A program made the position numbers and the translations under genes. The notes beneath the pieces were generated by a model, which saw only the letters and a list, made by a program, of their open reading frames with translations, made no database searches and had not been told where the DNA came from. Positions 9,257-62,965 of a stretch of DNA of 64,000 bases are shown here, one piece after another (positions within the stretch are counted from its first letter, which is position 1; each line of letters begins with the position of its first letter). The DNA is taken from the NCBI RefSeq assembly GCF_958298935.1, contig NC_084928.1, forward strand, positions 23,095,501-23,159,500, given 5' to 3'. Origin of the DNA: Phragmites australis. Taxonomy: Eukaryota > Streptophyta > Magnoliopsida > Poales > Poaceae.

Positions 9257-9261
9257 CTTAG

Positions 9262-10193: not shown

Positions 10194-10205
10194 CTTAGTT
10201 GCTAC

Positions 10206-11171
10206 TCAGTGAGCTTCACCTGGGTTTGATTGGTATTTGCTAGCAATACTCAGAGCATAAGAGATATCCAAGCGCGTACAAAGCATGTCATACATGATGG
10301 ATCCAATAGCCGAAGCATATGGTATCTCACTCATCTTGTCCTGCTCATCAGGTGTTGTGGGACACTGACTCTTGCTAAGACTAATACCATGTGACATTGG
10401 CAGAAAACCTTTCTTGGAATCCTGCATATTGAACCCTTTCAATACCTTATCGATGTATGTATATTGGCTTAATCCGATCATCCTTCTCAGCCTATCTCTA
10501 TAGATTTTTATGCCCAATATGTATGTTGCCTCTCCTAGATCTTTCATTGAGAAACTCTTTCGTAATGAAGATTTGACAGCATCAAGCATTGGAATATCAT
10601 TCCCGATCAATAATATGTCATCTACATATCAGACCAGAAACACAAGTGCACTCCCACTAGCCTTTTTGTAAACACAAGGTTATTCTTCGTTCTTGATAAA
10701 GCCAAAACCTTTGACTACTTCATCAAAACGAAGGTTCCAACTCCGAGATGTTTGCTTCAGCCCATAGATGGACTTTTGAAGCTTGCATATCTTCCCAATA
10801 TTTTTTGGACCGACAAAACCTTCAGGTTGTGTCATGTACACATCCACACTTAGGTTTCTATCAAGGAAAGCCATTTTAACATCTATTTTTCATATCTCAT
10901 AGTTGAAATATGCAGCAATCACTAGGATGATCCGAATAGATATTAGCATTGCGACTGACAAAAATGTTTCATCATAATCAACACCTTGAATTTGCTTGAA
11001 ACCTTTAGCCACCAATCGTGCCTTATAGATATGAATATTCACATCCATGTCTATTTTTTTTCTTAAAACCCATTTACACTCAATGGTTTTTACACCATCG
11101 GGCGGATCAACCAATACCAAACTTGATTCTCTCGCATGGATTCTAATTCGGATCTCATGGCTCCAAGCCAT
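10206..11171 (-). pseudogene. copia reverse transcriptase remnant
   Basis: Minus-strand fragments cover most of a copia RT. KWVLRKK...KARLVAKGF lies around 10980-11075, the GF....IYGLKQTSR.W block around 10720-10835, and the catalytic YVDD around 10611-10625 with a TGA directly before it. The C-terminal block SMKDLGEATYILGIKI follows around 10490-10560. Several stops and frame changes separate these pieces. The catalytic YVDD pair is still readable but the protein cannot be made. Confidence 0.85.
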
Positions 11172-11249
11172 TTCTCAAAGTATGGTCCCACCATTGCTTC
11201 CATATAGTTTTTGGGCTCATCATTGTCCAATAATAATATATCACGCTAC

Positions 11250-12407
11250 CCCGTGGTTAGGAGCATGAACCGTTCAGTTGCACGACATGCCCTTTCAGAC
11301 CTATGTGGAGCTGGTGGCTCAACAACAGGTTCTATAACATCTTGCACATCCTGTTGAGATTTAGTAGGAGCTGAAACACTTTCTGGTGTTTCTTGAATTT
11401 CTTTGACTTGCACCATGCTCCCACTAACTCTCTTTGAGAGAAACTCTTTCTCCAAAAAGATACAATTCCAGGCGGCGAACACTTTGCCTTCTTCCTAGCT
11501 ATAGAAATAATATCCTTTGGTTTCCTTAGGATACCCCATAAAGAAACATTTATCAAATTTGGAATTAAGATATATCAGACATCAAACGTTTTATATAAGT
11601 CTCACAACCCCATATCTTAAGAAAAGACAACCCATGATGCTTCCCAATCCATATCTCATACGGCGTCTTCTCTATAGCTTTAGATGGAACCCTGTTTAAT
11701 GTAAACACAACAGTTTTTAGAGCGTATCCCCAAAAGCACAATGGAAGATTAGATTGTCTCATCATGGACCAGACGATGTCTAACAAGGTTCAGCTCCTCA
11801 GTTCATATGCCCCATTCCATTGAGGCGTTCCTAACGGAGTCCATTGTGGAACGATTCCATATTTCTTTAGATGATTATCAAACTCACGACTCAAATATTC
11901 ACCTCCATGATCTGATCATAGAAATTTAATCATCTTGCCTATTTGATTTTGCACCTCATTCTAGAACTCCTTAAACTTTTTAAAGGATTCAGACTTGTGT
12001 CTCATTAAGTAGATGTAACCATATCTACTAAAATCATCGGTGAAAGTAATGAAGTACTAAAAACCACCTCTAGCTATAGAATTTATTGGTCCACATATAT
12101 CTATATGTACAAGGACCAACAATTCATTCACCCGCTCACTTTAAGCCCTGAAAGGTGTCTTAGTCATCTTGTCAAGTAAACAAAATTTTCATGTATCAAA
12201 TAATTCAAAATCAAATGAAGCTAGAAGACCATCTTTATGAAGCTTCTCCATACGCCTCTCATTTATATGACCCAAATGACAATGCCAAACATAAATGGGA
12301 TTCAAATCATTAGACTGAAGACTCTTCGCATTAATGTTATAGACAGGGACATCCTCAAGATCTAGAATATAGAGTCCATTCACTAATAGACAACGATCAT
12401 AGAACAT
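11250..12407 (-). pseudogene. copia integrase remnant
   Basis: The minus strand shows the pre-integrase block YVWHCHLGHINERRM (around 12260-12310), then degraded core sequence, then the C-terminal block KTPYEIWIGK...LKIWGCE.Y (around 11590-11670). Integrase would insert the cDNA copy into the genome. Stops break the frame repeatedly, as in the rest of the element. Position upstream of RT confirms the Ty1/copia order. Confidence 0.8.
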
Positions 12408-16430: not shown

Positions 16431-17146
16431 TGGATAAAAAAAACTATGAACCTGGCTACGCTAACATAAAACAAAATTTTCTCTACTATGTTCAACTAAG
16501 AAACCATATGAGTAGGGGATCATAGATCGTTACCACTAGATGTGCAGCGCAGCTAGAGAGTTAGAGTAGACCAATCCAATGTTGTGCACGTCAATACAGA
16601 AGAAGCAACTCTTTGACCAGCTCCAAGCAGGTGCTTCACGCTCCTCGACTAGCTCTGAGTAGATATGTTGCTCCTCAACCAGCTCCGAGCAGGTACATTG
16701 CTCCTCGAGTAGCTCCGAGCAAGTACGTTGCTCCTCGACCAGCTCCGCGACCACAAAGCGGAAGTAGTGGACCACCTCGTCAACCACAAAGAGGAAGTAG
16801 TTGATCTCGTCATAGTGTCATTGTCACCGATCAGCACCGTAGCAACGGTAGCAACACCTCCACGGTATCCACACGCACAGGAATGAAATGTTGTACGTCG
16901 GTGTGCTAACACCGCATCCGGCTAGGGTTTCATAGGGAGTTCGAGAAGAGTGGCGGCCAGGGTTTTTTTGGTTGAAAATCGAAGTGCCCATGACCCCTTC
17001 CTCCTCTTATATAGAGCACGCTAATGAGTCTTTAATCATATTAAAATCCATCATGACTCTATACTCTAATAGACCTTTAATCATATTAAATCTCACTTGC
17101 AAATTCAATTTACATATACAATCGCCTCTGGAGCATATCACCAACA
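16431..17146 (-). repeat. 5' LTR of the decayed copia element
   Basis: The sequence lies next to the PBS and ends GAGCATATCACCAACA on the plus strand, matching the end of the 3' LTR at 7133-7792. A TATATAAGAGG promoter motif is present on the minus strand at about 17004-17014. Positions 16610-16745 hold four to five copies of a roughly 30-bp unit (GCTCCTCGACCAGCTCCGAG), more than in the 3' LTR. The inner tip (TGGATAAAAAAAAC) has diverged from TGTTGGGGAACGG. Confidence 0.8.
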
Positions 17147-17681
17147 AAAAATTGTTCAAATAGCTAACTGTGTTCACCGGAACTGAACATATCCAATTGG
17201 CCATTGAATTATTAGTAAGGAACTTCTTAATATTTCCATCAGAAAACTAAAACAGGGGCCTGCTGAAAGAATAATGGTTGAGTGGGGAACAATGCAATAT
17301 CTTATGCCTGCAAGATTACTATTCTTCTGTACTTCTAAACTCAGCCGTATTGATTTAAAAATTTATTCACTGATCTAAACAACCAAAATATCTTGTACAT
17401 ATCTAATTATTATATTAGCTTATTATTCCTACGCATATAATATTAGCAAGGCTATAACAGTGGATAACAAGGCTATAATATCAGCAAGATGATTAAGCTG
17501 TACCTCTCCTGAATGAGCTTACAGGTCCATTGTTCTAACATTTGAGAGTCTGCAAAGCATACCATCACCACCTAAAGTAATGCAACCCTCTCTCCCAAAC
17601 TTTCCTCCACAATCATCTCCGGGGTCATCCTCATACTGATTATGGTCTTGACTGAAATACCAGGACGATTTTTCTTTGCAC
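17147..17681. other. Intergenic AT-rich DNA
   Basis: No gene or element is identified between the copia 5' LTR and the first F-box/LRR relic. It may include the decayed 3' end of that relic on the minus strand. Confidence 0.35.
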
Positions 17682-45031: not shown

Positions 45032-45087
45032 GGTCCACCATGGACCATGGATCGACCCTCAGGTCGTGGTCCATGGGTCCATGGACC
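45032..45087. repeat. Long imperfect hairpin built on GGTCCATGG
   Basis: Two arms of about 26 bp flank a CTCA loop. The left arm runs GGTCCACCATGGACC...CGACC and the right arm GGTCG...GGGTCCATGGACC. Internal GGTCCATGG palindromes allow several registers. It lies in the 3' half of the Tekay-like LTR. Confidence 0.65.
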
Positions 45088-46806
45088 TTTTTTTAAGGTT
45101 TTCTATGAACAAGAATTCTTATTCACTTTATGATGTCATAAATAAGATTTTCAGTATAAAAACAAATCGGTTTATTCTCGGAAAACAAGTAAAATTTGCA
45201 AAAAAGCCCATGGAACTTCAAAAGCTTATAACTTTTTACTCGTAGCTCCAATTTGGGCGATTTTCACGCTCAAATGTTCGTAGCGATGTGTAAAATTTTT
45301 TTATAGGATTTTTACCTAGTCTTATTACTGTTTGATGTATTGTTCTTATTAGTGTCCCTTGTATGCTTTTAGTACTGTTTGGTGTATTGTTCTTATTATT
45401 GTTTGGTGTATTGCAGAAAAGTCCCTGGGTTTGTCGATTAGGAGGTGATCAGTTCAAAAATCTGCAAGATGAAGTTTTTAAAGACTTTGAGCTACCCTCA
45501 GCTAAAGGCAAGTGTCATTGAACATCTTGCTCCCGTTTTAGGATTCATGTGTAGATATTTATTCTTTCATGGCATGCTTGTCTAAACTGTAATCCCATGT
45601 TAGGGTTTACTAGCTGATGTATGATTATTCCTTGCCGTCATTGATGAGTCATGATTATTGAAGGTTAGATATGCTAGTGCTGTTATAGTTGGGTAAATGT
45701 TAATCTTGACTAATAATTATACAACAAGAATCGGGTATGGTAATTTTGTAGCAACATGGTATAAGGATCCCAACTGAATGTTTGTATGATGATGGTGCAG
45801 GAATGCATGTGCCTGGGTAATGCATAGTTGGTTTGTGGTTGTCTTGTGTGAGATCGTTAGGACCGATTCTTGAAGCATGTAACCTGGCTAAATCGTACAA
45901 CCAAGAGGTTTATATGAGTACGGCCTGTCCAACTAATTGGCCACCCCTCCAGTTCTGTAGGCACCAATGGACGGTTGAGTGGCACAACAGGGGACTTCTG
46001 CAGTGATGGAATCGTCTGTTAGCGATAAAACATCAGTGGGTGCCTACGGATCGGAGAGAGCTTTGTAAAGGTCTTGTAGTGAGACCCTGACTCCACACAC
46101 CAAAAGTGTGAAGCAACACGGGAATCATGACTTGTGGGGAAAGCTGTGCAAACTCTGTAGAGTATAAACCTGATTGATCAGCCGTGCTCACAGTCAAGAG
46201 CGGCTTGGACTTTTTTATGATTAGTTGGGATCAGGATTTTGGTATAGTTGGTCGGGTAGCCGGGTAATGGAATTACCTGATGAGTCTTGGTAGTCAGATG
46301 GAATCCAATGAGTTGTTCCCCTTGTTATAGTTGTGTCTCCCCACTTAGTAAATAGGATGCCCGTTGTTGAAGTCATAGGTCATAGTTGCTTAATGCAGTT
46401 AACCAGTGTCTAACCTTTCCTTGACTTTAGCCCCATAGCATGTTTACCCTACACTTGTGGAGTACATTTTGTACTCACACTCGTAGTCCCCTTTCTTGCA
46501 TCCCTCTGCTGTTCAGAAGCCGTCAATGAAGCTGCATCCTTCGATGAAGATGACTCGACCTGGAGCTCCTATTCTAGGCTGGTGTGCCACCGGACGCCTG
46601 TGAAATATTGAAGACCCTCTGGCGCTGAAGCTCTCTTTTTACGTTGTGTTTTCTTTTAGACCCTCAGGTCCTTTTGTAATAAGTTAATATCGTTATTGTA
46701 ATAATGACACTGTTATGATACATTGATGATGTAACGCATATATGAAACTTGATCTTGGTATATATGTGTTGTGCCCAGTTTTGTTCCTTTAAAACTGGGT
46801 GTTACA

Positions 46807-47289
46807 GTACCTCAAGTCCCAGGATAAGATGGTACATCTAACCGGGATCTCGGAGTCCTCAGGTCGTCTAGTCAGGATTCTGAATACCTCTGAGTACTCA
46901 TGAGAGTCCTCAAGAAGGTATTCTGTCCGAATAGGAATTCGGAGTCATCCAAGAAATATCATCCTAATTTTACTAAACGATGGGGAGAAAAGACTTATCA
47001 TTGATCGGGTTTGAAATTTGAACCATTAAAGTGGAGATTTTGCGTAGTGGTGAAAAGAATCTTTCCCTTGCAAAAGATCATGATGACGTTTGGAAACTGT
47101 GTGTGTACGGCGGAGTAGTGCGCTGTTCTCCCTGGGGTACTATTCCAACTGCCCCACATGTGTCGAGAGAAATCTCGGGTATTGAATGCAATGAGACGTT
47201 AACGCAAGAGATCTTAGTCCTGAGCTATACTCAGAACCGTTATTGCACTAGTTGGGGAGCCGTCAAGCACCTCTTTGTTTGCGTAGCGA
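46807..47289. other. Unclassified repeat-like DNA left of truncated element B
   Basis: No family is recognised. It begins at the Tekay-like LTR target flank and ends where homology to copia RNase H starts. The open frame 47031-47402 spans this junction and is therefore chimeric. Confidence 0.4.
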
Positions 47290-47580
47290 GCCCGTTGAGG
47301 CAAACTTTGTTAGATTATGAAGTTGAGTTCAAAATAGTACCTCTTTTGTGTGATAATGAAAGTGCTATGAAAATAGCCACAAATCTAGTCCAACACTTTT
47401 GAACCAAGCATATTGATATTCGCCATCATTTTCTTAGTGATCATATAAGCAAAGGCGATATCTAGTAGATAGTTTGCGGACCGAAGATCAATTAGCGGAT
47501 ATTTTCACAAAACCTTTAGATGAGTCATTTTTGCAAGTTAAGAAATGAGCTTAATGTTATCGACTTCTCAAATGTTGCTT
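47290..47580 (+). pseudogene. Element B RNase H C-terminal remnant
   Basis: Residues matching the element A RNase H tail run from QTLLD through CDNESAMKIA to a TGA just after VQHF. Out-of-frame pieces follow matching HIDIRHHFL, LADIFTKPLDE and the terminal SNV block. It is dead because of the stop and frame changes. It marks the pol end, after which the spacer and extra ORF follow. Confidence 0.8.
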
Positions 47581-47821
47581 GAACCAATGGGCACATGATG
47601 TTTGGAGTACTTATATATTCTAGCAATCATACATTCACAAGTTCATATTGCTTGTATTTATTTCTTTTTAATATGTAAATTTGTTACATTTTTTTAATTC
47701 AAGCTTATATTTCTATGATTATGTTTATGTCCAATTGCATATGACTCTATCACATTTCGTATCTCTAAAGATCATATGGTTATCAATATCTCATTTGAAA
47801 TTTCTAGAGCTATGTTGTTCT

Positions 47822-48437
47822 CGCGGTCTGACCGCCAGCCAGCTCGGTCTGTCCACCATATCCATAAGAGAGAAATTTCTAGAGCTATGTTCTCTCGCGG
47901 TCTGACCACACCAAGCCTTGGTCTGACCGCCAGATCTATACAGAAACTTTTTGAGCCTCTGGACTCCTGCGGTCTGATCGGCTCGAGTCTTGGTCTAACC
48001 ACCAACAACTGTTAAGTCCACATTGATCTTTTTCTTTCTCCCCCGGTCCCTATCTCTCTCAACCGAACACATCTTCTTTTCTTCTCTCGTGAACCTGTGC
48101 CATCGGTGCAAACTCAAGGGAGCCCAAAATCCTTCGTTCCCGGTCGAACCGTGACCATCCCCGGTCCAACCGCGAACACCTTCATCATGTCTTCTCGGTA
48201 TTTCCTCGATTTTCTCTCTTTTTACCATGGATTTTAAGGTTTTTTCATGCCTGGGGTTTGAAAAAGAGGATTCATCTTATGAGACCTGGATTTGAGATAA
48301 AGTTGAAAGTAATGACTTGCTATGGTCTAAATTAGACTATGCTCAAAATTTGATTGGTTAAAACTTCAAATTTCTTCAAAATCCATCAAATCAGATCTAT
48401 TTGCATGTTTGCGGTCAGACCGCAGCCTGTGCAGGTT
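47822..48437 (+). repeat. Palindrome array 1 of element B, in the pol-extra ORF spacer
   Basis: It includes GCGGTCTGACCGC at 47822-47834 and GCGGTCAGACCGC at 48411-48423. Partial copies (GGTCTGACCGCCAG, CGGTCTGATCGG, CCGGTCGAACCG) lie between them. Each full copy has 6-bp arms around one base. The array lies about 90-700 bp upstream of the extra ORF start at 48527. Confidence 0.8.
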
Positions 48438-48526
48438 TGACCACCAGCAGAAACAGAAGTTGATACCTTCACTATTTCATCTTGTATCAATTCAATTCCT
48501 TTATTTAATTTCTTGTGACATATTAT

Positions 48527-49953
48527 ATGATTAGTAAAAGTGGAAGTGGCCTTGGGAAGAGATTGAAAAAGCTTGTGGCCAGTCGGGGCAAGAGTAAGAA
48601 AAGATTAGTGGAATCTAATTCAGAGGATGATCGTCAGGACTCCGATTTGATGCCACCTTAAGACATCAGTGAGCAAACCTCATCTTTTGCTGGTAATATT
48701 GATATAGAAAATCCTGAAATTTAATTGAGTACACAAGAGCTAGAAATATTTATCAATATGTTGTAGATAATGATGCATCTCAACCACATTTTCACACCAT
48801 GGTCCAACAAGATGTCTTCTATGGTCATATTCTAATTAAGAACGATTTTGAACAAAAATGGATATATTGGGCCTATGTGAGAAGTCAGCCTAGCATGGAT
48901 GGTTTAGCTGATATATTTCATGAGCTAAGTTTATATGAGTTAGTGAGTTTCAAATGTAATTGGAATGCCACTGTCATCACGCGGTTCTATACAACAGTTG
49001 AGATTTCTCATGAATCTCAAAAAAATGAGTGGATGGTAGGAACAAGAAAATTTGAAGCTTCATTTAAGGATTTTGCAAATGCCATAAGAACCCCCTATGA
49101 TATTGTTTATGGCACCATTTATATAAATGATGAAGCTTGTTTGGCTAAAAATGTGTGGAGTGCCTTCTATGAGCCACAAGAGGCTGTTCCTAGAGTCATA
49201 CTTGGGACAGTGATTGGATTGAAGGTATTATCCGTTACAATTAATAAAATTGTGAGAGCCACTTTTTCTTCAAAAAAAGTGGAAACAGTGATGCTATTCG
49301 GGATCACTACTGGAATATTATTAATCATACCATGAACAGGAGGAAAATCAATGTGATTAAGTACATTCTGAAGGCCATTGATGATATCATAGTGATCGTA
49401 ACTCCAAACCTTTATTTTGCTCCATTTATAATATCTCTTGTTCTCATGAAGACAAACTTTCGGTATGCATGTTGTGATATTAAACATATGGGATACAAGC
49501 CGTTCAAAGTTAATCCTCGTATTCTGAATAGAGGTCAGGGAGGTCAGGATATTCTTGCAGCTCAGGGAGGTTAGGATGAGAAACCTCAGCATTATGTTCC
49601 TCCTCAAGCTCAGCCAGCTCTAGAGCCAGTTCCTCCTCAGTGGGCACCTCCAGCTGGTTTCTTCAATCCCTATATGGCATCCATTCAGCAGGGCTTTCAA
49701 CAGAGTTTGGATTCTTTCCAAGCTAGTTTTCAGCAGAACTTTCATCAGCTTATGATGTTAGAACTCCAATCTAGTCGTCTATCCATATCTCTGGCTCGTG
49801 AGGACATGGCCGCTCTCAATACTCAGAACCAAGAACTGAATGCAATGTTTCACAACCTCTCTTGGACAACAGCGACTTGATGATTAGTTCACTGCCTTCT
49901 TCGATCATTTCTACAGCATCTATCCTCCTCCTCCTCCTCCTCAGGATGACTAG
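48527..49953 (+). pseudogene. Element B extra ORF, homologous to the 736-aa ORF of element A
   Basis: It starts at ATG 48527 with a basic N-terminus (GLGKRLKKLVASRGKSKK), comparable to the Lys-rich start of the element A ORF, then stops near 48659 and reopens in other frames. The middle part (48799-49335) contains a FYTTVEI block aligned with FYATVWI of element A, followed by similarly spaced hydrophobic residues. The end is Gln/Pro-rich with a CTC (Pro/Leu) run near 49924 and stops at 49953. Function is unknown. Position is that of the Sirevirus envelope-like ORF, but no membrane segment is apparent. Broken by at least two stops. Confidence 0.7.
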
Positions 49954-50482
49954 GCCTTTTGGTATTTGATGCCAAATGGGGAGAAGTTGGAAGAAGTGAA
50001 GAAGCTATCTTATAGTGCATCCTTGTTTCTTTAAGCATTGTAATGAACTATGTTTGCATCTTTACATATTTTGGTTGAGAACTATATGATGAACTATGTT
50101 CATTTGCTTATCTATATGTTTTAACTTTGTTGGATGTCTCGAGAAAAATGTTCTTAAGTGATATATTGGATTTTAGTGATCTTATTGATTATATTGATCA
50201 TATCTCTTTCCTCGGATCCATATATATAAGGTAAACTCCATCAAAATTCTTTTTTAATCTATAACTTGTGCTATTTTTCTTCTCTTTAATCTTATGGGCA
50301 CATGTGTAGGGTGAGCTTACCTTAACATGATTTTTTATAGCAAATTATCTTTATTTAACTTCATTCTTGCTATAGAAACTCACCTTTGAGTCTTCTTTTT
50401 CCTAATGGCTAAAAGTGGGCTCAAAACTTAAACCACATCATTTCTTAGTGTTATTGTCATAAGTTACCAAAAATGAGGAGAT
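49954..50482 (+). other. Element B 3' untranslated region with polypurine tracts
   Basis: Purine-rich blocks AAATGGGGAGAAG (about 49974) and AAAAATGAGGAGAT (50469-50482) are the counterparts of the repeated polypurine tracts of element A. The second directly abuts the LTR and would prime plus-strand DNA synthesis. No ORF. Confidence 0.65.
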
Positions 50483-52173
50483 TGAAGCATCTAGGCCCCT
50501 AATTCGTGTTTTGGTAATTAATAACAATATGTCTTTTGTGGACTAACATGTTTGAATAAGTTATGAAAATGTTAGTCACAAAGATGTTGTGGAGCTAGAA
50601 AATGCATGAGTGAAAAACATGAAGAATGGCTAGCTCAAGGAAAAGATATAATTATATGGCATTTTCTTTTGCTGGTCAAAAGGAGATTACAGAAGAGAAT
50701 TTGACCGGACTGATAGGATAAGTGTCGTACTATAAAGATGGGTTGATGTGAGTCTGCTGGAGGTATCTATAGTGCCACAATTGCTCAAACTTGTATTTCA
50801 TATAGAGTGGAAAATTTAGTTTGAGAGAAGCTAAGGAAATTCTCATCTTTGGGATGTTTTTGAGTTCTGGCTGTTTGACCGCTAGAGAAGCTGGTCTGAT
50901 CGGTGTATAAAATCTCCTCAATGTTGAGTAGAACCCAGTCCCGGTCTGACCGCTGGAGAAGTCGATCTGATCGCTGTATAAAACCTCCTCGATGCTGAGT
51001 AGAACCCAGTCCCGATCTGACCGCCGGAGAAGCCGGTCTGACCGCCGGAGAAGCCGGTCTGACCGCTGTATAAAATCTCCTCGATGCTGAGTAGAACCTA
51101 GTCCCAATCTGACCGAAGGTTGTGCCGGTCTGACCTCCAAACGACATGAGGGATTTGGATCCTCTGGTCTGACTAGCGGTCTGACCGCCAGCTTGGCCGT
51201 TCTAACCGCCCTGGGAACATTGAGTTTTGGCACTCTGTTCCCTGCTCGCGGTCTGACTGTGAGGGGTCACGGTCTGACCACCGGTCGTGTGTCAGGGTCA
51301 TCATGACACTTTCTATAGCCGTTGTAAAGGCAGCTGTCCGACCACCAAGTGACCTGCGGTCAGACCGCCAGAGTCGCAGAGCTGTCTTTTCAACAGCAAC
51401 GGCTACTTTCTTGAGTGTGGGCTATAAATAAGAGCTTGGCTGGTTCAAGGAACCTAAGCTAGCATTTCATTACAACCCTTTGAGCTCTTGCCTTCCTCCT
51501 CTCCCTCTTTTGGCTTAGTGATAGCATCTTTGAGAGTGTGAGAGTATCTAGTGCATAATTTTCAAGAGTTTGAGCATTGAGGCACTAGTGATCCTTCAAG
51601 CAAGCTTCATCAACTTGTTACTCTTGGAGGCTGCTGCCTTCTAGATGGCTTGGAGGTTGTCGCGCTATTGAGCCCTTCAAAGAAGATTGTGAAGGATCCA
51701 CGACTGTGATTGTGAGAGGCTTGAGCATGCCTTGCCAGAGCGGCAAAGTGAGTGCTACACTAGTGGAATCGAGGTATTGAATAGTTCTTGTTCTATTCCG
51801 GCTTAAGATCAAGTTGCTCGGTGTGAGCCCTTTCTCATGTGAGAATTGGATACTTGATAGAGAAGTGGTTTGAAACTTGAACTCACCTCAATTTGGATTA
51901 GGGGTGATCGGCAAATCACCAATACCACGGGATAAATTTTGTGTGTCATCTGTTAAGCAATTTACTTTCATGCAATTTAGTTTATGCAATTTATCTTCCT
52001 GTAATATAAATTGCTGCATGTCACACTAGGATTGCAAACCTTGACATAGCTCTTAGTTGTTTTCATATTGCTCTAGTGATGCTTAGTTTACTTTTGCAAG
52101 TTTCATTGATCGCTTAGCAATTAGTTTAAAACCCGCATATTCACCCCCTCTAGTCAGTATCCTAGATCCTACA
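50483..52173 (+). repeat. 3' LTR of element B (1691 bp)
   Basis: It begins TGAAGCATCTAGGCCCC, right after the polypurine tract, and ends CCTAGATCCTACA, preceded by TATTCACCCCCTCTAG, a typical Sirevirus LTR end. The TATA box TATAAATA is at 51423-51430. Upstream lies palindrome array 2 (about 50890-51375). The start matches the element A LTR start TGTAGCATCTAGGCCCC, showing relationship despite different bodies. Confidence 0.85.
50890..51375 (+). repeat. Palindrome array 2 of element B, with 71-bp tandem repeats
   Basis: Many GGTCTGACCGCC-type copies are present, with full palindromes at 51176-51188 (GCGGTCTGACCGC) and 51356-51368 (centre A). Units beginning GTATAAAA at about 50905, 50976 and 51068 repeat with periods of 71 and 92 bp; the 21-bp difference is an extra GCCGGTCTGACCG segment. 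The array ends about 50 bp upstream of the TATA box. Confidence 0.8.
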
Positions 52174-52530
52174 CCTGGGGGTTGCATTTCTTCGATAGCT
52201 TTGATCTTGTCGGGATTAACCTTGATTCCCCAGTATGACACTGAACACACACTTCTCTGAGTTAAGCATGACTCTGTGCTTGCATAGAATGTTGAAGGTC
52301 TCTTGTAAGTTGGAGATATGATCTTTCTTCTTTTTAGTCTTGATGACAAGATCATCGACATAGGCTTTGACATTTCACCCAATCTGGCCGTGAAGATTTA
52401 TCTGCATGCCCCGTTGATAGGTGGCGACAGCGTTCTTCAATCCAAAGGGCATTTTAACGTAACAAAATACTCTAACGATGATTACTGGATAACTACCATA
52501 TACAGGCATCCTAGGGTTTTCCGCAATTCT
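52174..52530 (-). pseudogene. Ty3/gypsy reverse transcriptase fragment
   Basis: The minus strand carries KAYVDDLVIKTKKK (about 52320-52365), with the RT catalytic YVDD, then a CKHRVMLN block and NPDKIKAIEEMQPP (about 52180-52215), the gypsy RT segment beyond the active site. It contains stops and is cut at 52173 by the element B LTR end, so element B probably inserted into this older gypsy element. Confidence 0.75.
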
Positions 52531-53242
52531 CAAGGCGTATCTCTATTTTCGGGAACGGAATCCCTGGATGAAAGGAAACAACTTGTAGGTACCCAAGGTA
52601 TGTAGTAAATAGGGAAGTTTATCTAAGTATGAGAAGAATGACTCCAGAGGACGTATGGTGCTACTTATATATACAGAGTCTCAGGCCCTTGCTGAGGACA
52701 AGCCATTAGAAGTTGCATAAATTGAACAAGTCAATAACAGCCAGAAGACACCTGAAGCCGAGCAAGGAAGTCACCGACTAGATTTATATTCATCTAGGCT
52801 AGCCACACCTACTTGTATTAGGTTCAAATCAATACAAGATAGACATGAAAAAGGGTTATTATTCTCAGGGAGGCTCGAACCTGTATAAAAAACCCAATGT
52901 GTTCTCCTATGATTCGTCTACTCAAATCATCCTCTATTTATTTTACAAATTCGTAAGATCGGCGGTTCACCAATTATCAGTAGCTGGCATCGTCCGTGGG
53001 GATATGACAATAGGCATTGAAGAGTCTACACAGAACATGCCATTAGCTTTGGCCAAGCCTTCGCTGAGAATCGGTTTCTCGGATGAGGCTTTGACAACTT
53101 TGCCCCGCTTCCCGGCAAACCGGTGATTGATCAGGTGAATTTTGACAAAGAACTTTCTGGCGACGATTGAAGCGATTAGGTAAGTCATTTTATGGATCAA
53201 TGCACCAAAGATTACGGCCTAGAGTTCGAACCACTCGGCTGC
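52531..53242 (+). mobile_element. Gypsy LTR 3' end and primer-binding region remnant
   Basis: At about 52986-53003 the plus strand reads TGGCATCGTCCGTGGGGA, a one- or two-base variant of the TGGCGCCGTCTGTGGGGA string found right after the 5' LTR in many plant gypsy elements. The upstream 350 bp would then be its LTR tail. Orientation is opposite to the RT fragment at 52174-52530, so at least two gypsy relics are present. It is cut at 53243 by element A. Confidence 0.5.
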
Positions 53243-55006
53243 TGAAAGGATCGAATAGCCCAAGAGGGGGGGGGGTGAATTGGGATATTAATTTTGTTTT
53301 AATTAACTACTGCTTGACCAAATAAAACTTATAAGAAACGCAAGTAAGGAATTTTAACTAGCACAAGATAGCTAACCACGCAAGAATTAACTAAGAAAGA
53401 CAATTCCTAAGAAGAACTTGCAATAATAACAAAGCTCAAAATAAGATGCAAGAAAGTAAAGAGTTGGAGAAGACAACACCGATTTTTTTCCGAGGTTTCG
53501 AGAAGTTGGCACTTCCCCCTAGTCCTCGTTGGAGCATCCACCAAGGATGTCGCTCCCCCTTGAGTCACCAAGGCTCAAGTGCTCCCTCTTGATTACCCCT
53601 TCTCCATCTCCGGATTGGCGGGTATCAAACCAAGTACATCCTCTTTTTCCGGGGCTCCCACAATTGCTCCAAGAGCTCACCGAGAAATCCTCCGATCACC
53701 AAGACCGTCTAGGTGTTGCCAACCACCAAGAGTAACAAGCCTCAAGCTTCACTTGACAAAGACCAAGCCTAGACAACAGCTAGATGCATACTTGTTACTC
53801 TCCAAGCACTCAAAGAAGTCCTTAATCCTCAACTAAGAACTTAAAATGGACACAAGTGCAACCTCTCTTGCCTCTAAATGACACACCAAGTGTATGAGCT
53901 GCTACAGGGTCGTAAGAGCAACTGTTGAAACCAACTGAGTGGGTATTTATAGCCTAGAGATCAAAAATTAGCCGTTGGCTAACCACTCTCATTTTACTGT
54001 AATCACCGGATAATCCGCTGGCTATATCCTTAAGATCACCGGATAGTCCGGTGGGTTCAAACCCAGAGCCAGCTGTCACTAGCCGTTGCACGGCAACATT
54101 TGTCCGGTGATAAACTCCGGTGAACAACAGTCAACACCGGATAATCCGGTGAGTACAACTCACCCGACCCTTCGAATTTCAGAACCTTCTGCAAGAAATA
54201 CTCCGGTGATATTTTTGCTAGCACCGGATAATCCGGTGAGTTCAATTTGTCTGAGTTTCTTCACAACATTTCTCCGGTGGTCTGCCAGCTAAGTCACCGG
54301 ATAGTCCTGTGAACGTAATTTTCCACTGTGGCCCGAAGCAATGCTCTCTGCAAGAAATAGTCCGGTGTTCATATTATGCATTCACCGGATAATCCGGTGG
54401 GTACAAAATTGTTTTTCTCCGAAAATTTTCTCTGCTGGAAAAGCTCCGGTGGTCACCGGACTTTCATCACCGGATATTCCGGTGTAACACTTCTGAAATT
54501 TTTCATATAATTCGGATGCCTCAATTAGTGTTTATCCGGTGAGTATTAGACATCCATCAGAGGATAATCCGGTGAATAAATGTTTTGTGAGTTTGTCCAA
54601 TTCAACTCTCTTTGAGCTCTAATTCCTTGACAGCTTCACCATGGACTTGTATGCTCTACCTAGTGCTAGAATTTAACAAGTGTGCATCATCTACGTCTAG
54701 ACTCACTAAGTCAAGCTACTACTTTTAGCCCCCCTTTATAGTACGGTCAAAAGACAAAAAGAAAAGGAGACCTATACTACTCTAAGTATCCTCCATCTCC
54801 TTTGTGACACTTAGAACTAGAAGATCCTTAGTCTTAAAGCATATGTCCTTTGATTGTCCATATAAGCACTTTAGGGACCAAGATTAACCAAATGTCATTG
54901 TATACTGAATTTTTGATTCCCTTCAAAACAAATTGTTAGTCACAGTAATATGGTTGTCATTAATCACCGAAACACTTACCACTTACCTAGGGGCCTAGAT
55001 GCTACA
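53243..55006 (-). repeat. 3' LTR of element A (1764 bp)
   Basis: In the element's sense it starts TGTAGCATCTAGGCCCC at 55006, immediately after the polypurine tract CCAAAAAGGGGGAGAT (55007-55022). It ends at 53243 with CTATTCGATCCTTTCA, preceded by a CACCCCCCCCC run. The TATA box GGCTATAAATACCC is at 53941-53954 (minus). Palindrome array 1 lies upstream of it in the element's sense. Confidence 0.88.
54004..54574 (-). repeat. Palindrome array 1 of element A, in the LTR
   Basis: About a dozen full or half sites are present. Exact CACCGGATAATCCGGTG lies at 54135-54151, 54222-54238 and 54383-54399; close variants are at 54004, 54037, about 54297 and about 54469; half sites CTCCGGTG lie between. 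Arms of 8 bp flank one central base. The nearest site is about 50 bp upstream of the TATA box in the element's sense. Confidence 0.88.
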
Positions 55007-55412
55007 ATCTCCCCCTTTTTGGTGATTGATGACAACACAAATAACAATAGAGATATGAATTTGAAGAGCAACCTATCATACTAGGCAAAAGAATGTATAA
55101 AGCAATAAAAGCGAGATAAAGCCTAGCGCTACAAAACTATCATGCTAGAATAGGTAGGAATTATGCGAGCATGAAAATAAACACAATGTGATGACAGGCG
55201 AAACACATCCATATACAGAGCCAGATAGCCTGTCATAACATCAAAATCAATCCATAAGATCCAACATTTCAAAACTAGCTACCCAAAAATCTAACCTCCC
55301 CCTGAATCAAAATCTCACTAGACCCCCCAGCTACTTTCTCTACCAACTCCCCCTATTACTAGACTCTCCCCCTTTGGCATCTAAGCACCAAAAAGAGAAA
55401 ACTAGGACATGA
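55007..55412 (-). other. Element A 3' untranslated region with repeated polypurine tracts
   Basis: On the minus strand, AGGGGGAG-type tracts occur at about 55009-55020, 55298-55308, 55349-55359 and 55366-55378. The one nearest the LTR is the functional primer site; the others are duplicates. Multiple polypurine tracts before the 3' LTR are a Sirevirus hallmark. Confidence 0.8.
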
Positions 55413-57623
55413 CTAAGCAGCCGGAGCTGGAGAAGATGGAGGACCCGATGCTGTCGAAGAAGGTGCCACGACGAACTGAGAACCGTCGGCCTCGGAGTCG
55501 GAGCTGGACGAACTGTGACCCGCAGCTGCTGTCGCCTCAACGATCTGATCCTGCACTGACTGAAGAGTAGCATCTGGAGCGTCAAGTGCTGGCTCAGCGA
55601 CTGAAGAAGGCACAACTGATAGCTGAGGGACATGAGGAGAGATGACTGGCTGCTGCTGCTCGGGGACTGTCGGCTGTGGAGTGTCCTCGAAGCTCAGAGG
55701 GCCAGTGGGTATAGGAGAAGTCAACGATGGTAACACTGGCCTCTGAGACATCCCAGCAGGCAGAGAGTACACTCCGGAGGCCAAGAGAGCTGACAGAGGG
55801 AAATCGGACCCTGGAGTACGCAAGAGTGCACTGACACTGCCTGGGAGATGACTCGGGGCAGGAGCCGAAGCAGGTGCTGGAGCTGGCAACTGAAGGCCCT
55901 GTGCCTGGAAAAGAACGGAGAACAATCTGGCGTTGTTCTCACGGTCTGCCTGAAGTGCTGCAAACATGGCCTGCTGCTGCTGCTGTAGTGACTGCATCAG
56001 TGCAAACTGCTGCTCCTCTCGGCGGCGAGCATCCTCCGCCTGAGCTGCCTGCTGCTGCTGCATCTGCCGAAGGATAAGAGTGATCTCCGAAGGCACTGCA
56101 GCAGAGGGCTCGGTGGTAGCTGTCTCAGTATCTGAGGAAGGAACTGAAGTCTGAGGCGCACCCTGAGTAGAACCACCAGCCTCAGCATCATGACGTCTCG
56201 GGAGTGGTGGAATGAACTCGATATCCTCCGAGTCACTATCGTCGTCTTCCAAGTCTATGAAGGCATGAGGTAGCTCTGCCTCGGCCTCTGCAAGGGCCTG
56301 GTCCTCAGCGGCAACTCTGTCTCGCTCCTCTGCTGGGATTTGCCACTGAGCCTGCGCCATAGCATGCTGTCCGCGACGTCTGTCCGTCGGAGCGCTAGGA
56401 ATATAGTCCGGGAATCGCTTCGGGGATCGCTGGTAGACGCCAAGATGCTCTGGATAATGAATCGAGCGAGCCAAAAAATATGAGATGAAATGCGCGAATG
56501 GCTGCTGTCTGCCCAGACCCTCTGCTATGTTATCCTCAATCTCACACAAGATGAGATCTAAAATGTCGAACTGCTGATGAGTGAGGATAGATAAGAGCAA
56601 CCACTGCTGGATACTGGTGATAGCCTCTGCGTTCCCGATCCTAGGCAACAGGCTGTGTCTGAGTGCAAAGTGAACTGCCCTCGCCTCCGGAGTCAGCATC
56701 TCTGGCAGTCTCAGTGAACCTGGAGGAAAGGGTGACCTGAACAACAGACGGATCTCGTCATCCGTCGGGAAAACGCCACCGGTCAGAGGACGACGAGGAG
56801 GATGAGCGTTCGGATGAACAACCTCATGCAAGAATCTGGTACTCTCCTGAAGCCTCAGAGCCTCGAGCATATCTGCCCGGTACAATTTGTAGACCTCTCC
56901 CTGAAACATGAACTGAATGAACGACCTGTCGGGAGCGATCCATACTGTCGCATAGAATATTCTGATCCAATCCCCAACATATCTGTCCACCTGAGTGAGG
57001 AGAGCGGTGAGACCGGGGAATGCATCAAAGTGTCGTCTCACATCTGCTCCCCCTGCAGCTGACTGCAAGTACTCCCATCTCAGCGTCCTGTGCTGGCTTA
57101 ACTGAACGCTCTTCCTGCCAAATGAGCGATAGAAGCTCTCCTGTACCACTGTCCAGAACCGGGGATCAATCCCCTCCTCTCTGACCTTAGGGAACCACTC
57201 CTCGACTGGTACGAATCTCAGCCTCTTGATCCTCGGACCCTTGCAGGACGTGAGATCAAGCAAACGGACCTCTCCCTGAGCTGGAGGCTGCTGCTCAGAC
57301 TGCTCGGACTGCTGCTGCTGTTCAGACTGCTCGGACTGCTCGGACTGCTGCTGCTGTGTCTCTACTGCCTCTAGCTCCTGGCGAACCCTCTTCCGGCCCC
57401 CTGACCGGCTGGAAGGCGTCGAACCTGACCTCCCGGAAGCACGAGTGCGGGTGGAACGGCGTGTAGGAGGGGTGGTCTCATCTCTGATCACAAAACCCTC
57501 CTGCCTGTTGTAGGCATCAACAGCAGCAAGCGCTCTGTCCCATTCCTTCTGAGTCTTTGACTTCTTCTGCTTCGGCTGCTCAATTGCCTTGCCCTTGCCC
57601 TTGTCACTGCGATTACGACCCAT
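55413..57623 (-). CDS. Extra ORF of element A between pol and 3' LTR, 736 aa
   Basis: Uninterrupted from ATG at 57623 to the stop at 55413. Residues 1-30 are Lys/Arg-rich (KGKGKAIEQPKQKKSKTQK), a possible nuclear signal. Residues 89-113 are Gln/Ser/Glu repeats. A probable folded part covers about 125-420 and includes the block FYATV (223-227) followed by a hydrophobic pattern, reminiscent of the FYANL block in Athila ORF1/plant retrotransposon gag-like proteins. A Glu/Asp-rich stretch near 470-490 precedes a Gln/Arg-rich probable coiled coil (about 535-580) and a Pro/Ser/Ala-rich tail. I see no signal peptide or transmembrane helix, so an envelope role is not supported by sequence. It lies on the same strand as gag-pol with its own upstream palindrome array. 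Function is unknown; a structural or regulatory role is inference. Confidence 0.85.
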   Translation of the reverse strand: MGRNRSDKGKGKAIEQPKQKKSKTQKEWDRALAAVDAYNRQEGFVIRDETTPPTRRSTRTRASGRSGSTPSSRSGGRKRVRQELEAVETQQQQSEQSEQSEQQQQSEQSEQQPPAQGEVRLLDLTSCKGPRIKRLRFVPVEEWFPKVREEGIDPRFWTVVQESFYRSFGRKSVQLSQHRTLRWEYLQSAAGGADVRRHFDAFPGLTALLTQVDRYVGDWIRIFYATVWIAPDRSFIQFMFQGEVYKLYRADMLEALRLQESTRFLHEVVHPNAHPPRRPLTGGVFPTDDEIRLLFRSPFPPGSLRLPEMLTPEARAVHFALRHSLLPRIGNAEAITSIQQWLLLSILTHQQFDILDLILCEIEDNIAEGLGRQQPFAHFISYFLARSIHYPEHLGVYQRSPKRFPDYIPSAPTDRRRGQHAMAQAQWQIPAEERDRVAAEDQALAEAEAELPHAFIDLEDDDSDSEDIEFIPPLPRRHDAEAGGSTQGAPQTSVPSSDTETATTEPSAAVPSEITLILRQMQQQQAAQAEDARRREEQQFALMQSLQQQQQAMFAALQADRENNARLFSVLFQAQGLQLPAPAPASAPAPSHLPGSVSALLRTPGSDFPLSALLASGVYSLPAGMSQRPVLPSLTSPIPTGPLSFEDTPQPTVPEQQQPVISPHVPQLSVVPSSVAEPALDAPDATLQSVQDQIVEATAAAGHSSSSSDSEADGSQFVVAPSSTASGPPSSPAPAA

Positions 57624-59730
57624 CTGACAGATGCAACGTGAAATAGAGATGAGTGATCATATTGGGTTTAAGATTTCGAATGAAATTAACCCTAAACGGA
57701 ACCCTAAGCATGGATGGATATGAATTGAGACAATCATGCTATGGATATAGGCAAGAGACAATAGATATTGATCAATTGCATAGAGTAAGACATGAATTTG
57801 GGCAAATTAATCAAAATAGGCATGAATTTGAAGCAAATGTGAACGATTTTGCTTGAATTTGAGTGAAATGAGCAATATATGGTACAAACAGATGAACATG
57901 CCCTAGTAGGTGATGAAAAGGTGGAGATGAAGCTAATTTCTTGATTTGATCACGGCAAGAGGCAAGATTTGACAAAATTCATCTAATTTGACATGAATTT
58001 GAGGCAAATTTGTATTAAAGTCAACGGATTTAACAAGGAAGACGCATAATTGATGAACATGCTCTCAATTTATGTCAATTGAAACTGAATGATCACAAAG
58101 TTGAGAGAAATTGACTCAAATTTACATGAATTTGAATGAAATTTGCATGGATTGTCTTGAATAATCACGAATTTGGCCAAATTATGCGCAATTTTGACTA
58201 TCATGTACTCAATTCATGTCTAAAAGATGGAATAGCAACAAATTGGATCAAATTTGCTTTGATTTTTGAAGAAATTTCATGAATTTTGGCACACAATTGT
58301 ATGAATTTGATCTAGGGCTTCATCAATTTGAGTACACCGGCCACAAATGTGCTCACCACGATGAAGGAGAGAGAGAGGAGGTGGCGGTGATGTGGTCACG
58401 ATGGCCGGCGGCGCAGGAGGGGCGGCGGCGGTGAGTGGGGCACGGCGGAGGCGGCTCTGCGCGCGGGAGCTCGGGGCAACGACGGGCGACGAGCCGGCGC
58501 TGGCAACCTGGTGGCGCCGGTGGACGGTGCGACTCCGGCGGCGGCGCTAGGGAGCTGGGAGGCGGTGAGTCGGCGAGGTGGCGCGAGGACGTCCGAGCGG
58601 CGGAGAAAAAACGAGAGAGCCGGCCGACCGGGAAGACATATATGACAGGTGGGTCCCGCAGTTTTTTGAAAGCACCGGATAATCCGGTGGAGGAAACAGA
58701 GAGCACCGGATAGACCACCGGACTAATTCTTGCAGAACCAAATTTCAGAGACCGAAATCTTCTGTTCACAGGATGTTCCGCTGAGCTTATATTTAGCACC
58801 GGATGACATCACCGGATATTCCGCTGATCACCAGGAAAAGACAGCGGACTAATTTTTGCAGAACTAAATTTTTGAAGGCCGAAACCTATTATACTCACCG
58901 GACTTTCCGCTGATCACAACATAACATCACCGGACTTATGTTAAGATTTTGAAGTTCAGTGAACTGATGAGCACCGGAATGTCCGCTGATAACTAACTGA
59001 TCACCGGACCATTGCCATGGTTGAACTGATCTGAGACAGAGATTACAGGATATTCCGCTGGTAAAATGAAAGGAGCGCCGGACTATCCGGTGATATGAGA
59101 AAAACCAGGCTGAACTAATTTCTCTCACTGAGTCCAAGTTTCAAATAACCACTCAACATAAACACATATTTGGACCAGTTTGAGTGAATCCCTTACCCTC
59201 TCAAACTCTCATTTACAAATATTTGCCAAAAAGGCTCTAACATATATAATTTTTGAAATAATCAAATAAGAGCCAAAGAAGATGGTAGAAAACACCAAGG
59301 AAATATTTGAGCCATATTTCCTATGAACTTAAAGATGAAGGCTTTAAATTCGCTAGGACATGACTCAATAGGCATTAAGCACTTATATCTTTCTAATCAC
59401 ACTTTTAGAAGTGTACGTTCACATTGAGAGCGAACTATAATCTCAAAGAGTGATATTCTCCTTTGTGATCTCTCTACCACCAATGCTTAAGCAATGTAAG
59501 ACATATGCATGAAAGTAGACATGAGTGCATATTATATGACATGTGAATGCGAAGCGTAAAATTAATCTATCTTGTCATATTACTTCCCTTCTCAAGCTTC
59601 TTCATGGTGAACCCAACAACATACCTTGAGAAGAACTAGTGACTTACCATTTCAAGCAAAACCCATGTCCACCATTACCTTGAGACGGTTAGACAAGGTC
59701 CTATTATGAATGCATCTATATGACAAGGTA
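57624..59730 (-). other. Spacer between pol and the extra ORF of element A
   Basis: It has three parts in the element's sense. First, AT-rich sequence after the pol stop (59730 to about 59100). Second, the palindrome array (59092-58673). Third, a GC-rich block (about 58650-58370, GCGGCGG-type), then AT-rich sequence with GAATTTGA-type words leading to the ORF start. It carries no intact gene; short frames in the GC-rich block are unconvincing. The order palindromes, GC-rich block, then ORF recalls a promoter plus 5' UTR. Confidence 0.6.
58673..59092 (-). repeat. Palindrome array 2 of element A, upstream of the extra ORF
   Basis: The exact CACCGGATAATCCGGTG is at 58673-58689. Variants ending CCGCTG (for example CACCGGACTTTCCGCTG near 58895 and CACCGGAATGTCCGCTG near 58974) and CGCCGGACTATCCGGTG at 59076-59092 follow. 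The same core is found in the LTR array, 4 kb away. Confidence 0.85.
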
Positions 59731-61395
59731 TCAAATGACATTAGAAGCATCGATCGCATTTAGTTCATTTCGTAATCTACTAAAAGTGGCTTCATCTAGA
59801 GGTTTAGTGAAGATATCCGCCAGTTGATCTTCCGATCGAACACTACTAAGAGAGATATCATTGTTTGCCACATGGTCTCTTAGAAAGTGATGACGAATAT
59901 CAATGTGCTTTGTGCGGGAGTGTTGAACGGGATTGTTAGCAATTTTTACGGCACTCTCATTATCACAAAGGAGTGGAACCTTCTCTAGACGAACACCAAA
60001 GTCTAACAAGGTTTGCTTCATATAGAGGATTTGAGCACAACATGCTCCGGCGGCAATGTATTCTGCTTCAGCTGTGGACAAGGCTATTGAATTTTGCTTC
60101 TTAGAACTCCAAGAGACTAGGGATCGCCCTAGCAAGTGGCACCCACCCGAAGTACTCTTGCGATTCACATGGCATCCGGCAAAGTCCGAATCCGAGTATC
60201 CAAGCAGTACGAAACTAGCACCTTTTGGGTACCACAAGCCTATGCTAGGTGTATGCTTTAGGTATCTAAGGATTCTTTTTACCGCACCAAGATGAGATTC
60301 CTTAGGATTAGCTTGAAAACGAGCGCACATGCATACACTAAACATTATGTCGGGCCTAGATGCGGTAAGGTAAAGGAGTGACCCAATCATCGAACGATAG
60401 AGTTTTTGGTCAATCGATTTACCCGTTTCATCCAAGTCGAGATGTCCATTTGTAGGCATGGGGGTCTTGATTGGCTTGCACTCTTCCATCTTAAACTTCT
60501 TGAGGATATCTCTCGTGTACTTCTCTTGATGGATGAATGTCCCTTCCTTTAATTGCTTGATTTGGAATCCAAGAAAGTAATTTAGCTCACCAATCATCGA
60601 CATCTCGAACTCCTTAGACATCATATCACCAAATTCCTTGCAAAACTCTTTGTTAGTTGAACCAAATATTATATCATCAACATAAACTTGACACAAGAAA
60701 AGCTCATTGTCGATGATCTTTGTGAACAATGTGGTGTCCACCGTCCCTATCTTGAATCCTTGGTTGATGAGGAAGTCACGTAGGCGTTCATACCAAGCTC
60801 GTGGGGCTTGCTTGAGACCATAAAGTGCCTTGACCAACCTATAAACATGATTAGGATATCTAGGATCTTTGAAACCGGAGGGTTGTTCAACATATACGAG
60901 TTCATTAATAAGGCCATTTAAGAATGCACTTTTCACGTCCATTTGATAGAGTTTTATGTTATGATGTGAAGCAAATGCTAGAAGGATACGGATGGCCTCA
61001 AGCCTTGCCACGGGAGCAAATGTTTCGCCAAAATCCAAACCTTCAACTTGTGCAAAGCCTTGTGCGACAAGTCTTGCCTTGTTGCGTACCACCACACCAT
61101 GTTCATCTTGCTTGTTGCGAAAGACCCACTTTGTTCCAATTATGTTCTTGTCTTGAGGCCTTTCCTCAAGTATCCATACCTCATTTCGAGTAAAGTTGTT
61201 GAGTTCTTCTTGCATTGCCATCACCCAATCAGGATCAGTGAGAGCCTCATCTACATGTGTGGGTTCTGAACAAGAGACAAACGAGTAATGTTCACAAAAT
61301 GAAGCACACTGACGAGAGCGAGTTTGTACTCCCCTAGATGGACTTCCAATGATCAAGTCAATCGGGTGATCCTTGGAAATATGTGTATGCTTCAC
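59731..61395 (-). pseudogene. Element A pol, RT and RNase H part (554 codons open)
   Basis: The frame is open from 61395 to the stop at 59731. RT blocks: KWVFRNK, KARLVAQGF, QMDVKSAFLNG, YGLKQAPRAWY, and catalytic YVDD at residues 238-241. RNase H blocks: GYSDSDFAG, ALSTAEAEYIA, CDNESAVKIA and HIDIRHHFLRD, ending LADIFTKPLDE. RT copies element RNA into cDNA and RNase H removes the template. All catalytic motifs are present. The frame follows directly in phase after a premature TAA (61396-61398), so it lacks its own natural start and is the downstream half of a broken polyprotein. Confidence 0.9.
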
Positions 61396-62965
61396 TTATG
61401 GTTGTTGAGGTGTATTTTGTGGTGATCCAACATCTTGAGCTTGAGCTTGAGCTTCCTCTTGAGAGATATGGACATCATGTGATGGAAGTGGTTGATCATC
61501 TTTGTCTTCATCTTTATCAACTTGTGGTGCCATTGAGGTGTGTGGTATTAAAGTAGAGGGTACATCTTCATCGTCCTCCTTAGGCTTGATATCCCCAATT
61601 GCCATATTCTTCATTGCATCTCTCAAGGGTTCATCACCTACATCATCACAAGAAATATCCTCTCCTTGGGAGCCATTAGATTCATCAAACTCCACATCAC
61701 AAGTTTCTTCAACAAAGCCGGTGGCATTGTTGAATACTCGATATGCTTTGGAGTTTGATGCATAGCCAACAAGAAAACCAATGTCACAACGTTTTTCAAA
61801 CTTGCCTAGGCGTTCCTTTTTCTTGTAGATAAAACACTTACACCTGAACACCCGGAAGTAGGAGACATTGGGTTTTCTCCCAATAAGAAGCTCGTATGGC
61901 GTTTTTTTTCAATAGTCGATGGAGGTAGACTCGGTTAGAAGCATGGCATGCCGTATTGATTGCTTCCGCCCAAAACTTCTCCGGAGTACCATACTCATCT
62001 AACATTGCTCTTGCAAGTGTAATCAAGGTCTTGTTCTTCCTCTCTACTACGCCATTTTGCTGAGGTGTGTAGGTTGATGAAAACTCATGTTTGATGCCTC
62101 TTTCTTCACAAAAATCTTCAATTTGAGTGTTCTTGAACTCCGTCCCATTGTCACTCCGGATCTTCACAAGTATAGACTCAAACTCATTTTGAGCCCTTTT
62201 TGCGAACTTCTTGAAGATTTCAACGGTCTTTCCTTTGTCATCTAAAAAGAAAGTCCAAGTATATCTTGTATAATCATAAACAATGACAAGACAATATAAA
62301 TTACCACCAAGACTTTTGTAGGTAGTTGGTCTGAAGAGGTCCATGTGTAGAAGTTCCAAGGGTCTTGACGTAGACATCATGGACTTGTATGGATGAGGAC
62401 TTGCAACTTGTTTTCCGGCTTGACACGCACTACACAACCTGTCCTTCTCGAAAACCACATCCTTCACACCAACCACCTTCCCATTTTTGAATACCTTCTT
62501 GAGTTGGCTCATCCCAATGTGTGCAAGCCGACGATGCCAAAGCCAACCCATAGATGTCTTGGTGAAGAGACATGTAGTCAAGCTAGCATCATTAGAGGAA
62601 AAATCCACAAGATAGATATTCCCATGTCTAAATCCTTTGAATATTAGGTCATTATGCTTCTTACTCGTTATGATAACATCAACATCACTAAACAAGCATG
62701 TGAAACCCAAATCACATAGTTGAGCTACGGAGAGTAGATTGAAGCTAAGTGATTCTACTAAAAGAATATTGGAAATAGAGAGATCTTTTGAGATAGCCAC
62801 CTTACCCAAACCTACCACATTTGCCTTAGAGTTATCACAAAAAGTGAATTTATCATGATTATCCACTTCATCTTCTAGAGAGGTGAACATCGTTACATTG
62901 CCGGTCATATGTTGTGTACATCCGCTATCAAGCACCCAATATTTTCCACCGGCTTTGTAGTTCAC
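61396..62965 (-). pseudogene. Element A pol, protease and integrase part, frameshifted
   Basis: The first frame (62965-61838) carries the protease site VLDSGCTQHM (residues 11-20), the integrase zinc motif H144-X3-H148...C178-X2-C181 and the catalytic triad D209, D272 (KIRSDNGTEF) and E308 (PQQNGVVER). At an 8-base A run (T on the plus strand, 61902-61909) the frame shifts. The integrase C-terminal block (RCKCFIYKKKERLGKFEKR) continues in the frame 61851-61396, which ends in TAA at 61396-61398. Two breaks therefore make pol inactive. The gag stop at 62980 lies in a different frame. Confidence 0.88.

Follow-up and report, generated by a model that had tools for sequence, protein, structure and literature searches.

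Two neighbouring Sireviruses

The 64,000-nucleotide stretch of the Phragmites australis genome considered here (contig NC_084928.1, positions 23,095,501 to 23,159,500; hereafter the window) carries two Ty1/copia retrotransposons of the Sirevirus type, and our subject is the arrays of short palindromes present in both, together with the protein that each encodes between pol and its 3' long terminal repeat (LTR), at the position of the Sirevirus ENV gene (Table 1). Of element B, an ENV-containing Sirevirus on the plus strand, only a decayed 3' portion is left. It begins with the RNaseH end of pol, 43.5% identical over 147 columns to the reverse transcriptase-RNaseH region of element A (tblastn, E 4e-23), and upstream of this a search with the A proteins detected no further B pol. 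The ENV-position open reading frame (ORF) is fragmented, with pieces in more than one frame. The 3' LTR is about 1.7 kb long, with inferred ends: on the left GAGGAGAT and then TGAAGC, on the right the polyC-rich signal of Sireviruses (CCCCCTCT, at 52144), closing in CCTACA. A self-comparison of the window gave no second copy of this LTR. The polypurine tract of B is degenerate, with GAGGAGA at 50475, GGGGAGA at 49978 and no exact copy of the Sirevirus tract AGGGGGAG in 47501-50600.

Element A, its neighbour on the minus strand, has copia-type pol domains (integrase-type and RVT_2, within 59731-62965), and four exact copies of AGGGGGAG in 54000-56500 of the same strand. A string search for the Sirevirus primer-binding site TATCAGAGC, which follows the 5' LTR, covered 52500-56500 minus, around the A 3' LTR. 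As is usual in Sireviruses, palindromic CGG-CCG repeats lie in the LTR before the TATA box and again before ENV.

Table 1. Features of elements A and B, in window coordinates.
Feature	Position	Strand	Basis or remark
B, RNaseH end of Ty1/copia pol	47157..47576	+	tblastn with element A RT-RNaseH
B, pre-ENV array	47823..48444	.	10 sites, <=4 mismatches, five 21-bp doublets
B, ENV-position open piece	48509..48661	+	Lys/Arg-rich; net +5 over 50 residues
B, ENV-position open piece, 205 aa	48718..49335	+	weak match, A domain profile 11-118
B, ENV-position open piece, 108 aa, other frame	49248..49574	+	weak match, A domain profile 188-244
B, ENV-position open piece, Pro/Gln-rich	49575..49880	+	ORF list
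B, 3' LTR	50483..52173	+	ends inferred from sequence, junction and polyC search
B, LTR array	50870..51368	.	15 sites, <=4 mismatches; 21-bp doublets and one triplet; units mostly at 71-72 bp
B, TATA box CTATAAA, directly after LTR array	51422..51428	+	motif search
A, LTR array, CACCGGATAATCCGGTG type	54004..54574	. (element on minus)	mismatch motif search
A, ENV-position ORF, open, 747 aa stop to stop	55413..57656	-	ORF list and comparisons
A, PF20167-like domain of the ORF	56382..57209	-	AlphaFold2 model and structure matches
A, pre-ENV array	58673..59092	.	between pol and the 747-aa ORF

The palindrome arrays

A first-pass annotation of this DNA had placed arrays of the motif GCGGTCNGACCGC at two places in B, and the counts confirm them well beyond chance expectation. 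When up to two mismatches are allowed, the window holds 18 copies of the motif, 17 of which fall within the two arrays (expected 0.41; largest of 100 shuffles, 3). Three mismatches give 8 pre-ENV and 13 LTR sites with 12 elsewhere, and four give 10 and 15 with 94 elsewhere; with so many equally loose matches outside the arrays, the four weakest array sites are counted as such because of where they lie. The LTR array was correctly located, if about 20 bp too far downstream at its start, and it does precede the LTR TATA box, whereas a second CTATAAA (50730) lies upstream of it. The arms, on the other hand, had been described as perfect around a single central base, which is true of only 4 of the 25 sites (47823, 48411, 51176 and 51356) and not of the other 21. 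The same two places are indeed occupied in A, whose CACCGGATAATCCGGTG arrays lie before ENV and before a CTATAAA (53952, minus strand); with up to six mismatches allowed, 4 of these 20 sites are exact.

The sites of B are arranged in doublets. Exactly 21 bp separate the neighbours in 12 of the 23 gaps between the 25 sites, with no pair at 18, 19, 20, 22 or 24 bp and a single one at 23 bp (51333/51356, excluded from the identities that follow). Restricting the count to the 21 stronger sites leaves 8 of 19 gaps at 21 bp, whereas 2000 simulations gave 0.386 on average and never more than 3. Across the 12 doublets identity is 0.78 and 0.74 in the motif, 0.32 in the 8-bp spacer and about 0.30 in the flanks, and the nine doublets without recent copies give much the same picture (motif 0.77 and 0.72, spacer 0.29, flanks 0.28-0.30). 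Part of this order arose by tandem duplication (the pre-ENV units measure 74 bp, those of the LTR 21, 71 and 92 bp), so that common descent explains part of the 21-bp spacing. However, the spacing survives where the spacers have diverged, and this suggests that it is under selection. The arrays of A are more loosely spaced: its LTR sites fall into three triplets, with recurring distances of 56-57 and 30-33 bp as against the exact 21 bp in B (one loose site, at 58716, was left off the list of A gaps).

One entry of the protein database, P0022, is an LTR reading frame of a probable relative (E 9e-6, 38% identity, 51% of the query). With strict motif peptides, whose patterns were picked after the peptide had been viewed, 4 of its 7 gaps measure seven codons; with a looser dipeptide set, only 3 of 12 do. 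A scan of viral contigs for the doublet pattern returned 33 stretches, including one with five copies (L023, 9015-9924) and another with four (L026, 371-848).

One kind of palindrome

The two palindromes had been called unrelated, with negligible sequence identity. This has to be abandoned, as both are CGG-N5-CCG: they have half-site (CGG) and gap (5 bp) in common, and only the inner bases and outer flanks differ. The window contains 23 occurrences of CGG-N5-CCG, 11 in the B arrays, 11 in the A arrays and one elsewhere, whereas 60 simulated windows averaged 2.93 and none had more than 6; at every other spacing from 0 to 15, CGG-CCG occurs 5 to 15 times, nearly always outside the arrays. Since half-site and gap have been kept while the other bases changed, the sequences suggest one kind of binding protein whose specificity has shifted. 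Overlapping palindromes of the GGTCCATGGACC type also cluster at 45032-45087, outside the arrays of either element.

The arrays themselves are not a new observation. They are the high-copy palindromic repeated motif (RM) of Sireviruses, which has a CGG-CCG core and lies in the LTR upstream of the TATA box, with further copies before ENV in the ENV-bearing elements (Bousios et al. 2010, PMC2829016). Among the 13 published consensuses the core spacing is N5 in eight, N4 in three and N6 in one, and one is without the core. The motif of OPIE-2 and PREM-2, CACCGGACTGTCCGGTG (PMC2829016), is close to that of A. The core of B, CGGTCTGACCG, is also that of rice Osr10, which has arrays before both ENV and the LTR TATA box, in similar numbers (12 and 10, against 8 and 13 in B with up to three mismatches, 10 and 15 with up to four). 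The likeness to Osr10 is one of motif core alone, and the parts of the RM paper at hand describe neither fixed 21-bp doublets nor an N5 rule. In the literature searched we found no earlier report of the doublets or of a link between Sireviruses and the VANC proteins discussed below, although an earlier mention is still possible; PMC13317346, as far as its accessible text goes, mentions both Sirevirus and VANC but treats them separately.

The ENV-position proteins

The PF20167-like domain of the A protein gives an AlphaFold2 best model (mean predicted local distance difference test 80.6, predicted template modelling score 0.81), and computation suggests a resemblance to VANC21, the DNA-bound form of which is the best structure match to the predicted fold. 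All 20 members of the protein set match PF20167, A itself with E 0.14. DUF1985, the domain shown in VANC (PMC5735166, Fig. 5 legend), is absent among the 12 families that the 20 members match at E <=10, a search in which the HMMER filters drop most weak matches, and because of this absence we do not class the A protein as a VANC. A search of BFVD gave 204 matches at E <=10 and none at E <=0.001. The N-terminal part of the protein is rich in Lys and Arg (net +5, residues 12-60). After the VANC-like domain, residues 524-585 are predicted to form a long helix that could serve dimer formation.

The corresponding ORF of B is probably a distant relative of that of A, judging from profile comparison. 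When the A domain profile was run against the 478 ORFs of the window, the two main B pieces ranked third and fourth (E 0.11 and 0.2, below the HMMER inclusion threshold), and they match collinearly, at profile positions 11-118 and 188-244; for the larger piece, only one of 1602 scored shuffles (2000 made) reached its score. Rank second was taken by a 52-aa minus-strand frame at 46022-46177 (profile positions 5-40, E 0.0058), perhaps what is left of a further gene of this kind, perhaps a chance match. A homologue search with the 205-aa B piece passed none of 68 candidates, and Pfam gave no relevant match for the four B pieces.

A proposed element-encoded factor

The roles of the Sirevirus ENV and of the palindromes were both open in 2010, according to the available text of PMC2829016, and we found no later settlement in the literature searched. 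The VANC proteins of the Arabidopsis VANDAL transposons offer a precedent: they bind short motifs arrayed in the non-coding DNA of their own transposon family and bring about a loss of DNA methylation, and the targets differ between families (PMC5735166, PMC10398659). VANC21 and VANC6 resemble the present case in being element-encoded, in having motif arrays in the element's own non-coding regions, in a motif that differs between families and possibly in the fold of the DNA-bound domain. Unlike A and B, however, VANDALs are DNA transposons, there is no detected sequence similarity or DUF1985 match, and the motif of A and B, unlike that of VANC, is a palindrome with a CpG; anti-silencing, moreover, is in our case inferred.

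We give a probability of just under one half (about 0.48) to the reading that the RM arrays, including those of the decayed Sirevirus B, are dimer sites for an element-encoded VANC-like factor. A protein dimer would recognise each 11-bp CGG-N5-CCG core through its two-fold symmetry, and pairing at about two helical turns (21 bp) would place two dimers on one face of the helix, where they could bind cooperatively. The product of the gene between pol and the 3' LTR would then be a VANC-like DNA-binding protein and not an envelope. At the LTR it may prevent DNA methylation from closing the promoter, and at the array upstream of its own gene it may drive or protect its own expression. The families would have shifted the inner and flanking bases together with the protein, presumably by co-evolution, as the VANDAL transposons did. 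The suggestion in the first-pass annotation that the factor may be element-encoded is favoured by the VANC21-like predicted fold of A and the probable relative in B, if still weakly.

Several results weigh against this reading or bear on it. The fold score of the A domain against VANC21 is borderline. Direct comparison of the A and B ORFs gives nothing at 1e-3 (E 0.044 as a pair; hhalign probability 6%), and in a summed-score shuffle test 19 of 300 shuffles did as well, which is not significant. In the RM survey, 4 of 13 RM elements are without ENV, six ENV-bearing Sireviruses are without RM, and near-identical RMs occur in distant monocot and eudicot elements (PMC2829016). The idea that each family follows its own factor thus keeps the conserved position and geometry in its favour but has these elements, and the kinship of the two palindromes, to contend with. 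The SIRE-lineage elements of sunflower are reported to show a strong drop of CG methylation inside the element while CHG methylation stays high (PMC12844716); the drop in CG would agree with anti-silencing and the retained CHG methylation disagrees with a loss in every context, but neither is a test. A trace of low methylation in the form of CpG protection of the arrays was sought but found no support: CpG is retained inside the motifs (observed/expected 0.99 and 1.07), but the spacers (0.42 and 0.46) show no significant difference from the DNA around them (p 0.20 and 0.11).

The main alternative, which we consider less likely, is that host transcription factors of a family reading CGG-N5-CCG bind the palindromes and drive transcription both from the LTR and from an internal promoter of ENV. 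A conserved host protein would fit the fixed CGG half-site across elements, and likewise the near-identical RMs of distant elements and the RM elements without ENV; Bousios et al. also considered stress-related factors, their PLACE matches being mainly to stress-related sites (PMC2829016). Yet they found no site for a common single factor (PMC2829016), and both the change of inner bases between families and the tie between linker RM copies and ENV (present in 9 of 9 elements with ENV and 0 of 4 without; PMC2829016) fit an element-encoded factor better. A thin literature search for a host family with this motif, including the LOB-domain factors as candidate readers of CGG-CCG, brought up nothing usable.

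It is considerably less probable that the arrays act as nucleic acid structure, with transcribed hairpins feeding small RNAs and the repeats kept as a by-product of tandem duplication. Both B arrays do fold better as RNA than their shuffles (z -3.55, 1 of 100 as good; z -4.27, 0 of 20), palindrome clusters of maize Sireviruses carry an excess of small RNAs (PMC10760457, PMC5311732), and one of 21 copies has a double change that keeps its pair (A-T, positions 3/9). But the arms in B are short (5-6 bp), all other departures are one-sided, 7 of 21 copies retain the outermost pair, and selection for hairpins would not be expected to fix 21 bp over diverged spacers. The small RNAs may also be a host response instead of a function; hairpins and small RNAs alike may be consequences. 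Least credible of all is that the ENV-position gene encodes a genuine envelope-like protein with no relation to the arrays, whose only role would be to regulate its promoter: the historical annotation (PMC2829016) and two B pieces with hydrophobic stretches (19-residue means 1.73 and 2.14) speak for it, but no segment of the A protein is strongly hydrophobic (maximum 1.41; 1.27 to 1.68 in 19 relatives), and the protein starts with a Lys/Arg-rich part and finds its best structure match in a DNA-bound protein.

More speculatively than for A and B themselves, the VANC-like reading could extend to Sirevirus ENV-like genes in general, and perhaps to Athila-type PF20167 ORFs, as sequence-specific anti-silencing proteins of the VANC type whose targets would be palindromes bound by dimers paired at a distance of two helical turns, with the ENV-less RM elements borrowing the protein of a relative. 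A sunflower Athila element likewise carries an ORF beyond the standard set of an LTR retrotransposon, and this ORF too resembles PF20167 (Transposase_32) in part, but the element belongs to another lineage, and the available text does not mention RM arrays (PMC11728184). If the extension is true, the roles of the ENV gene and of the palindromes share one answer, and LTR retrotransposons would join DNA transposons in using sequence-specific anti-silencing. Sireviruses are reported to make up 21% of the maize B73 genome (PMC10760457).

Other features of the window

Elsewhere in the window, a further Ty1/copia pol has left a remnant at 8770-12293 on the minus strand, with pieces 25-38% identical to the pol of A. 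Two repeats, 7161-7793 and 16466-17147, are 80-84% identical and may be the LTRs of this remnant.
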